Shown: positions 14,943 through 17,802 of the stretch, one piece after another
Layout of the letters: each line of letters opens with the position of its first letter
Numbering within the stretch: position 1 is the stretch's first letter
Origin: Bacillus sp. NEB1478
GTDB taxonomy: Bacteria; Bacillota; Bacilli; Bacillales; Fictibacillaceae
Assembly (NCBI RefSeq): GCF_031582965.1
Contig: NZ_CP134049.1
Coordinates: 3,534,001-3,598,000, forward strand
Direction: 5' to 3'
DNA length: 64,000 nucleotides
Translations under genes and position numbers: made by a program
The notes under the pieces: model-generated
What the model was told of the DNA's origin: nothing
Seen by the model: the letters and a program-made list of their open reading frames with translations, nothing else
Databases searched by the model: none

Positions 14943-15479
14943 ATGGAAACGAAATTAGCGAGAGAAAGCCGTATTATCAATACTGACCAGGTTATGTCCC
15001 TGGATTTAAATAACTACAATACATTGTTTGGCGGAGTTTTAATGAGAAAGCTGGACAACAACGCAACTCTATCTGCCAGAAGGCATGCCAGAGTAAAAGA
15101 ATGTGTAACAGCATCCACTGACTCAATCGACTTTTTGCATCCAATCCACCAAACTGACTCTGTTTGTATTGAATCTTTCGTGTCCTATACAGGAAAGAGT
15201 TCAATGGAGATTTTCTGTAAAGTTATTGCCGAAGATATGATGACCGGCGAAAGAAGAATTGCAGCTACAGCATTTTTAACATTCGTTGCCCTTGGCGAAG
15301 ACAAAAAGCCGGTTGAAGTCCCGCAAGTTATCCCTGAAACAGAAGAGGAAAAATTCTTATTTGAAACGGCAAAAGAAAGAGCAGAAGTACGTAAGTCTAG
15401 AAGAAAGAAAAGTAAAGAATTAGCGGAAGTTATTTCACTTAAGAAACCTTGGGATACAAAAGAGGAGGTATTTGCGTGA
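14943..15479 (+). CDS. Acyl-CoA thioesterase, hotdog fold (YkhA/BFIT-like)
   Basis: 178 aa. LNNYNTLFGGVLMRKLDNNA is the hotdog helix with the conserved GG, and FVSYTGKSSMEIFCKV the CoA-side strand. The C-terminal tail is long and Lys/Arg-rich. These enzymes hydrolyse acyl-CoA to free acid and CoA in the cytosol. Compared with the paralogue at 16751-17224, the helix carries LDNNA in place of YIDEIAA, so the acidic residue pattern differs. The start follows AAAGGAGAG. The stop overlaps the next gene (GTGA). Confidence 0.88.
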   Translation: METKLARESRIINTDQVMSLDLNNYNTLFGGVLMRKLDNNATLSARRHARVKECVTASTDSIDFLHPIHQTDSVCIESFVSYTGKSSMEIFCKVIAEDMMTGERRIAATAFLTFVALGEDKKPVEVPQVIPETEEEKFLFETAKERAEVRKSRRKKSKELAEVISLKKPWDTKEEVFA

Positions 15480-16320: not shown

Positions 16321-16692
16321 CTATTCTATCTTCGTTTTAATTTTGAAAATGAAGTAGTAATACTTTAATAAAACAATGAGAACTAATAATATTCTCACAT
16401 AAAGGTTATCAGTAAGAATAAACGGTATGGCAATCATGATGTCAGCTAGTAAATTGATCATGATTTTCTTTTTTCGTGTTAATGCTTTTTCTTTTACGAA
16501 TTCTTCTAAATGTTTTTTATAGATCGAGGTTCCTTTAAACCAGTTATCGAACTTTTTCGATCCCTTCATGAAAAAATAAGAAGCGACAAGTAAGAAAGGT
16601 GTGGTTGGAATGAGGGACAATAGCAGCCCTACGATTCCGAGCAACAAAAACAACATTCCGAGAAAAATGAAAAATGCTTTTTTGACCTTCAC
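16321..16692 (-). CDS. DUF454 (YbaN-like) inner membrane protein
   Basis: 123 aa. Hydrophobic segment FIFLGMLFLLLGIVGLLLS is followed by the conserved LIPTTPFLLVASYFFMKGS motif of DUF454, a KxFDNWFKGTSIYKKHLEEF loop, and two C-terminal helices. Function is unknown. The GTG at 16692 is chosen because GAGGGG lies 9 nt upstream. An in-frame GTG at 16749 has no ribosome binding site. It is probably co-transcribed with the thioesterase gene that ends just upstream. Confidence 0.8.
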   Translation of the reverse strand: MKVKKAFFIFLGMLFLLLGIVGLLLSLIPTTPFLLVASYFFMKGSKKFDNWFKGTSIYKKHLEEFVKEKALTRKKKIMINLLADIMIAIPFILTDNLYVRILLVLIVLLKYYYFIFKIKTKIE

Positions 16693-16750
16693 GAGACTCA
16701 TCCCCTCATCTGTATGAATTTGGTCTGAGTCCATCTTAACAGTTATCACC

Positions 16751-17224
16751 CTATTGATTCACATTTTTATAAAACAATCGGTTTTCTTTTCTGAGCCGGG
16801 CACTTTGAAACAGAACAGCTTCTTCCTTTGTTTCTGGAATAACACTCGGCACAGGTGTTGGGGTACCTTCTGCATCAATTGCTACCATCGTTAAAATCGA
16901 AGTCGTATTCAATGTCCGATTTCCCGTTTCTAAGTTCTGGCATTCTACTTTTACATAAACCTCCATAGATGTCCTTCCTGTTGAAATTACAACACCTTCT
17001 AAAATTAAAATATCTCCCACTTTTGCAGAGGATAAAAAGTTCACATTGTCGATGGAAGCTGTCACAACAACCTTTTGACTATGCTTCATAGCCGCTATTG
17101 CAGCAATTTCATCAATGTAAGATAACACCCTTCCGCCGAAGATTGTTCCCATGTGATTCGTATCAGGAGGCAACACCAATTTTGTCTGGATCGTTCTTGA
17201 TATGTTTGCTGATAACTGTTCCAT
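16751..17224 (-). CDS. Acyl-CoA thioesterase, hotdog fold (YkhA-like)
   Basis: 157 aa. DTNHMGTIFGGRVLSYIDEI is the canonical acyl-CoA thioesterase helix with Asn, the GG turn and Asp. VVVTASIDNVNFLSSAKVGD and STGRTSMEVYVKVE complete the hotdog signature. It hydrolyses acyl-CoA in the cytosol. The ATG at 17224 is preferred over a TTG at 17236 because GAGG is 6 nt before it. It is a paralogue of the gene at 14943-15479, in opposite orientation. The cobalamin riboswitch lies upstream on the same strand, but a terminator intervenes. Confidence 0.9.
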   Translation of the reverse strand: MEQLSANISRTIQTKLVLPPDTNHMGTIFGGRVLSYIDEIAAIAAMKHSQKVVVTASIDNVNFLSSAKVGDILILEGVVISTGRTSMEVYVKVECQNLETGNRTLNTTSILTMVAIDAEGTPTPVPSVIPETKEEAVLFQSARLRKENRLFYKNVNQ

Positions 17225-17293
17225 CCCATTCCTCAATTCCGGAGCTTGAAACTCCTAGGTTTTAGTTGTGGGAGCTGGTAATTGGTACTAATA

Positions 17294-17329
17294 AGCTGAC
17301 AAAAGATTCGAAGCTTATCAATTAACAAA
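17294..17329. repeat. Direct repeat, left copy
   Basis: AGCTGAC then GATTCGAAGCTTATCAATTA, repeated at 17418-17454 with one substitution and a 1-nt indel. The end of this copy is part of a perfect 9-bp palindrome (AATTAACAA/TTGTTAATT, 17320-17340). Confidence 0.75.
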
Positions 17330-17417
17330 CATTGTTAATTAAGAAGCAAGAAGGTCGAGGAAGCAAAGTTTCGAGAAACGGACGCGTATTCAACATACGT
17401 GAGTATCGCAGAAACAA

Positions 17418-17454
17418 AGCTGACGACGAGATTCGACGCTTATCAATTAACAAA
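17418..17454. repeat. Direct repeat, right copy
   Basis: AGCTGAC then GATTCGACGCTTATCAATTA, about 125 bp from the left copy. The interval contains CGTAT/ATACG and a purine-rich stretch, with no ORF. Confidence 0.75.
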
Positions 17455-17478
17455 AAACTCCATCACTAAGGATGGAGG
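17452..17478 (-). terminator. Terminator downstream of the cobalamin riboswitch
   Basis: On the minus strand CTCCATC pairs with GATGGAG, followed by TTTTTT. It lies about 110 nt past the aptamer and before the thioesterase gene. Confidence 0.75.
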
Positions 17479-17585
17479 AAGAATATAAATAAAACGTAAG
17501 AATACTTAATTAAACAGAAATACTCTGCATCAATTAAAATTCCTTCGTCTTATCTTCCCAACTCCCGAAGAAGATCAACGCGATA

Positions 17586-17740
17586 AACATGGCAGGTCTC
17601 CTGACTCGTGCGTCAATCTACTCTAAGCCCTTCCCGTTTTTAGACAGTGGTTTTCGCTTATTTCGTCAGCACTTACAGTTGCGGGTACAGTTCTGGTTTT
17701 GCACCAGATTCCCTATTAAGTCTGTAACAGACACCATGAT
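17586..17740 (-). ncRNA. Cobalamin riboswitch (adenosylcobalamin type)
   Basis: On the minus strand the 5' core AATAGGGAATCTGGTGCAAA, CCCGCAACTGTAAG, the P6 segments CCACTGTC and GGGAAGG, and a perfect B12 box (GAGTCAGGAGACCTGCC) appear in the right order. P1 can form between CATGG (17738-17734) and CCATG (17592-17588). No cobalamin-related gene follows. The only reading frame starting at P1 is 18 codons long, after which a terminator is reached. The upstream MFS gene ends 63 bp before it with no clear terminator. Confidence 0.9.
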
Positions 17741-17802
17741 TATTTGTTATTTAATTATCTATATTTTATTGTGCTCGTTCTCAAAAGACAAGCTGTACGC
17801 TA

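Follow-up and report, generated by a model that had tools for sequence, protein, structure and literature searches.

A cobalamin riboswitch probably controls an acyl-CoA thioesterase gene in Fictibacillus and other Bacilli

Cobalamin riboswitches have been described as controlling the supply of B12 or replacements for B12-dependent enzymes (PMC3766115). The stretch of DNA analysed here (64,000 nucleotides of Bacillus sp. NEB1478, referred to as the window) contains a cobalamin aptamer that is followed by a terminator. A sequence-only reading had called this riboswitch an orphan and had noted that neither metE or nrd nor any gene for the uptake or synthesis of B12 lies downstream, which is true within the window. 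Which gene, then, does the riboswitch control, and what might that gene have to do with B12?

The aptamer is complete. RF00174 aligned with the minus strand from 17753 to 17574 over the full model (positions 1-189 of 189; score 122.1 bits, gathering score 31.5, E = 3.9e-30), confirming the full minus-strand aptamer of the sequence-only reading, and no other match within the window exceeded the gathering score. The genome (3.93 Mb, one contig) carries four cobalamin riboswitches in total. The other three head a class I ribonucleotide reductase (L002), metE (L004, where the locus ends within the gene) and a gene for a DUF4430 protein together with one for the S component of an ECF transporter (L003), and in each of these leaders a terminator-like hairpin can be recognised by eye 3' of the aptamer. 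The promoter-like site directly upstream of the aptamer is weak when taken alone, as a scan of the region gave 3 sites against 4.8 expected in shuffles, no better than chance; by eye, the orthologue L034 has a cleaner version, TTGTCA-17-TATAAT, at the corresponding position. The features of the locus are collected in Table 1. We rejected control of the neighbouring MFS efflux gene, which sits upstream of the aptamer and is replaced by other or opposite-strand genes in the relatives examined.

Table 1. Positions of the riboswitch leader and the genes behind it (window coordinates)
Feature	Position	Strand	Basis
Promoter-like site TTGTCT-17-TAAAAT, directly upstream of the aptamer	17763..17791	-	Scan
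Cobalamin riboswitch aptamer	17574..17753	-	RF00174, 122.1 bits
18-codon frame; unconserved, probably no gene	17534..17590	-	Leader comparison
Conserved hairpin after P1: ATCTTC, loop TTCGGGAGTTGG, GAAGAT	17552..17575	-	Leader comparison
A+T-rich stem in the interval from hairpin to terminator	17494..17548	-	Folds
Intrinsic terminator	17452..17477	-	Scan and orthologue comparison
Dispersed repeat in the gap from terminator to thioesterase gene	17304..17454 (about)	- (strand arbitrary)	Own-genome matches
Acyl-CoA thioesterase gene (4HBT hotdog), from ATG	16751..17224	-	PF03061, 71.7 bits (cut-off 20.6); PDB 1vpm, 197.7 bits
DUF454 gene, behind the thioesterase gene	16321..16749	-	PF04304, 110.9 bits (cut-off 35.1)

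Named loci identify the genus of the window's genome as Fictibacillus. We used the leader DNA to search the other genomes of this genus and found a strong orthologue in 16 of 17. At all 16 orthologous loci the next gene on the same strand encodes the thioesterase. In genome G001, where the thioesterase is 62 percent identical, 143 nt separate the end of the same-strand aptamer (L226, 416-611) from the start of the protein match. A same-strand cobalamin riboswitch is found just upstream of the thioesterase gene in 18/18 genomes of the genus, that of the window included. The arrangement extends beyond the genus. A thioesterase search returned 140 relatives in named genomes, and an Rfam scan of the best 80 of these 140 loci placed a same-strand aptamer upstream of the thioesterase gene in 73, 11 of them from Fictibacillus (19, 15, 20 and 19 in the four successive sets of 20 loci). 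The seven loci without one are L093, L118, L124, L133, L134, L135 and L140. In the four scans the aptamer ends 145 to 345 nt before the thioesterase protein match. The term orphan is thus a misnomer, as the thioesterase gene is the conserved partner of the riboswitch. This synteny lends strong support to one of the roles that the sequence-only reading had offered, namely a switch that conditionally lets transcription run on into the thioesterase gene.

Why the partner had seemed to be missing is apparent from the gap between terminator and gene. This gap contains a repeat of about 150 bp that has 53 matches in the genome, itself counted, and occurs in tandem in places. The interval between the P1 strand and a fixed reference point within the gene is 401 nt in the window versus 211 to 245 nt in the 16 orthologues; the repeat lengthens the leader, which is why the RNA appeared in the sequence-only reading to be terminated and to have no gene. 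A scan of the window revealed no promoter-like or terminator-like site on the minus strand between the start of the repeat and the gene, so the predicted read-through should still reach the thioesterase gene. More generally, a riboswitch that appears orphaned in one genome may merely be separated from its gene by a repeat. The corresponding gap in the relative L039 holds a string related to the window's repeat.

The terminator lies between the aptamer and a same-strand gene, which is the usual place for the expression platform of a cobalamin riboswitch. Its stem (17477-17458, minus strand) has 7 pairs and is followed by TTTTTTGTTA. A scan of this single region found 1 terminator against a mean of 1.0 in shuffles, which by itself is within chance. 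The orthologous leaders bear out the proposed intrinsic terminator: among the leaders in which the conserved hairpin could be recognised (78, of which 17 are from the genus and 61 are others), the gene is preceded by a hairpin with a run of four or more T behind it, and in 71 of the 78, the window's included, this combination is stronger than in at least 95 out of 100 dinucleotide shuffles. The seven leaders in which it is not are L039, L046, L048, L109, L111, L112 and L131. We read the terminator as the likely expression platform through which a B12 switch acts in cis.

The hairpin that follows P1, which we take to be P13, is also widely kept. Of 79 leaders with a riboswitch (17 from the genus and 62 from other named loci), 78 contain a matching motif; the exception is L142. 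In free folds of some leaders the hairpin loop pairs with the 5' arm of the terminator, as an antiterminator would. Measured against shuffled arms, this pairing was better at the 5 percent level in none of the 78 leaders, and against shuffled loops it was better in four. We also considered, and rejected, pairing of the loop with a CCAACTCCC-type string near the thioesterase start, which was significant against shuffles (5 percent level) in 4 of 17 Fictibacillus leaders and 4 of 61 others. In the window the minus strand reads CCAGCTCCC at 17270-17278, near the thioesterase start and complementary to the loop GGGAGTTGG. A similar form of this string, non-significant by itself, is kept in most Fictibacillus leaders, with runs of at least 9 pairs in 16 of 17; in L040 the run is at a different place.

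The thioesterase belongs to the 4HBT hotdog superfamily by the Pfam gathering score and also matches HI0827 (PDB 1yli, 3bjk). The program-made frame begins at a TTG at 17236, and we took the ATG at 17224 as the start. In its 4HBT domain and its matches to 1vpm and HI0827 the protein is like YkhA/YciA-type hotdog thioesterases, but it falls below the NCBIfam equivalog cut-off for YciA (62.2 versus 162 bits). The ykhA gene of Bacillus subtilis is reported to be a target of the small RNA RoxS (PMC10433868). The DUF454 gene follows the thioesterase gene in 10 of the 11 named Fictibacillus loci and in none of the 69 other named loci. A second 4HBT thioesterase gene lies 1.3 kb from the first (14943-15479, plus strand); its product is 40 percent identical to the first, and none of the genome's four aptamers adjoins it. 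A search of plasmid records for a near match returned none.

We consider it probable, at roughly 85 percent, that a cis-acting cobalamin riboswitch controls the transcription unit formed by the thioesterase gene and, where present, DUF454. The switch is probably OFF with cobalamin. The direction of control is suggested by the riboswitch family and by its partners metE and nrdA. RNA polymerase would initiate directly upstream of the aptamer and, when cobalamin is bound, would be halted at the terminator; without cobalamin, it would continue through the inserted repeat into the thioesterase gene. The gene order suggests that these bacteria make the thioesterase when B12 runs low.

In many relatives the thioesterase gene shares its riboswitch with genes for B12-independent enzymes. 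A class I nrdA relative follows it in 47 of the best 80 named loci, all 47 of which have the riboswitch (the family assignment was confirmed on L079), and at one further locus, L100, the following gene is the anaerobic nrdD. In a class-wide sample of 151 genomes, 105 have a thioesterase relative (E 1e-20) and 113 a cobalamin riboswitch. The best thioesterase match has a riboswitch upstream in 7 of the 105 (G000, G153, G166, G168, G175, G190 and G199), and in G207 a different copy of the thioesterase has one. The order riboswitch, metE, thioesterase occurs in at least five of the 151 genomes, with metE identified by family search in G100 and G125 and by the appearance of its N terminus in G141, G144 and G211; in G141 a small extra frame separates metE from the thioesterase gene. 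Altogether at least 13 genomes of the sample are linked, a lower bound since many stretches were checked by regular expression only. Regular-expression matches in L151, L196, L206, L211, L216 and L219 were not accepted as aptamers, being unconfirmed by Rfam. In L273 (G079) a riboswitch (C4:167673-167869, plus strand) heads nrdA, and the adjoining divergent thioesterase gene has no aptamer of its own by regular expression.

This sharing raises the question of whether the thioesterase is a mere passenger of nrd and metE operons, for which B12 control would have no significance of its own. The 47 loci with nrdA and the at least five genomes with metE could be read in that way. However, in Fictibacillus and some other genomes the thioesterase gene has its own riboswitch with no nrd or metE gene behind it, and at L085 the thioesterase gene and nrdA are divergent, each with a separate aptamer. 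The history of the link was examined in a tree of 117 thioesterases, from which 28 near relatives had been dropped beforehand and in which 'unlinked' means that the stretch fetched contained no aptamer. One large group of riboswitch-linked thioesterases also includes unlinked members. Four of the five metE-linked cases cluster with three stand-alone cases in a second group (support 0.97), and the remaining metE-linked thioesterase lies apart from both, so that linked cases occur in at least three places. Parsimony requires 7 changes on this tree, whose deep supports are uneven. Because the thioesterase gene has repeatedly been joined to B12 gene strings of differing make-up, the tree suggests that B12 control is important to the thioesterase in its own right, and we regard the passenger explanation as unlikely.

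The other explanations turn on the repeat and on the leader itself. If the switch had served a lost gene, a fate that had already been proposed for it, and the repeat had cut off the thioesterase gene, the riboswitch would be a non-working relic in this species. The roughly 150-bp repeat between terminator and gene fits such a history, but the aptamer scores as high as those of the relatives, the terminator is kept, and the insert carries no promoter-like or terminator-like site on the minus strand. The comparison with relatives also gives no support to a lost gene, as the thioesterase gene is next at the 16 orthologous loci and is still present in the window beyond the repeat; this explanation is improbable. 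Alternatively, the leader RNA that ends at the terminator (about 300 nt) might act in trans on other RNAs as a B12-responsive small RNA. Precedents come from Listeria, where the B12 riboswitch RNA Rli39/AspocR acts on other RNAs, and from the eut-locus RNAs, which also combine an aptamer with a terminator; as in the window, no classical B12 gene adjoins them. Aptamer and terminator do form a self-contained unit, and in the window species the repeat separates that unit from the gene. In contrast to an AspocR-type antisense RNA, the window's riboswitch has a conserved same-strand downstream gene, which lies within the normal leader range at all 16 orthologous loci and in the same order at 73 of the 80 named loci. 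We consider action in trans very improbable; the terminated leader may be a by-product of the switch, and there is no need to invoke a separate small RNA. Finally, translation of the 18-codon frame as a regulatory leader peptide has next to no likelihood. The frame is indeed open at 17590-17534, and from the corresponding ATG 5 of the 17 orthologous leaders (the window's included) have frames of 15 to 19 codons; in 11, however, the ATG is absent and in one the frame has 2 codons, and the window's peptide reads through the conserved hairpin.

The preferred reading, cis-acting control of the thioesterase gene, joins a known aptamer and a known mechanism to an apparently new sort of target, an acyl-CoA thioesterase. 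Cobalamin riboswitches before metE and nrdAB in Bacillus methanolicus MGA3 share with the window's case the aptamer family and the logic of turning on B12-independent functions. The targets in MGA3 fall into three classes (transport and synthesis, NrdAB, and metE), and the word thioesterase is absent from the main text (PMC4342826). The same is true of thioester and thioesterase in the main text of the riboswitch papers searched, including PMC4342826 and PMC3766115. Among openly accessible papers, titles and the beginnings of abstracts revealed none joining a cobalamin riboswitch to a thioesterase; four papers contain both words.

What a thioesterase might do when B12 is short is suggested by the enzymes that share its control. 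The thioesterase gene has riboswitches in common with B12-independent isozymes (nrdA, nrdD and metE), as would be expected within a B12-independence regulon, but a 4HBT thioesterase and an acyl-CoA mutase are not isozymes. The window's genome has metH, with a frame that continues to its end, and nrdJ, as well as a gene of the methylmalonyl-CoA mutase type and a second, longer gene that matches IcmF in length. During B12 shortage, MetE and class I ribonucleotide reductase would stand in for the B12-dependent enzymes, and we know of no B12-independent substitute for the acyl-CoA mutases. Since MetH and NrdJ have riboswitch-controlled substitutes and the mutases have none that we know of, a thioesterase that releases CoA would fill the vacant place. 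When B12 is short the mutases would stall, methylmalonyl-, propionyl- or isobutyryl-CoA would accumulate, and the thioesterase could hydrolyse the accumulated acyl-CoA and so free coenzyme A. A methylmalonyl-CoA hydrolase is known from mammals in the older literature, and the literature search listed one paper that uses this name. At most, the enzyme would relieve the stalled mutase step. We tentatively propose that in Bacilli the riboswitch-controlled thioesterase is a CoA safety valve at a stalled methylmalonyl-CoA or isobutyryl-CoA mutase rather than a replacement enzyme, a reading that we hold at somewhat less than even odds.

The distribution of mutase genes is in part consistent with such a role. 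A PF01642 match, one of them weak, is present in 87 of the 151 genomes of the class sample: in all 13 linked genomes versus 74 of the 138 others (Fisher p = 0.0005, a value that ignores kinship and takes the linked genomes, at least 13, as 13). Among genomes with both a riboswitch and a thioesterase, 13 of 65 with a mutase are linked versus 0 of 20 without (p = 0.022, under the same two provisos), and in the other 52 of the 65 no link was found (links being a minimum). All 44 named genomes tested, of the 80, have mutase genes. These include the seven without the riboswitch, and the mutase thus does not require the link. In G125 the metE-thioesterase pair is followed by a second aptamer and then by genes for methylmalonyl-CoA mutase subunits and MeaB; this aptamer (L271, 6476-6604, minus strand) is shorter and scores 64.1 bits.

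If the proposed role holds, the thioesterase would represent a new answer to B12 shortage and a third member of the B12-independence programme, in addition to MetE and the class I ribonucleotide reductase, joined to the riboswitch in several lineages. Its wide conservation as a target leads to a clear prediction about the keeping of free coenzyme A when B12-dependent mutases stop, and would give a group of hotdog thioesterases a possible physiological setting. In the window's genome, the two parts of the B12-dependent reductase gene nrdJ (region C1:1615751-1618163) have a group I intron between them (L282, 3024-3483; RF00028, score 67.1 bits, cut-off 50).
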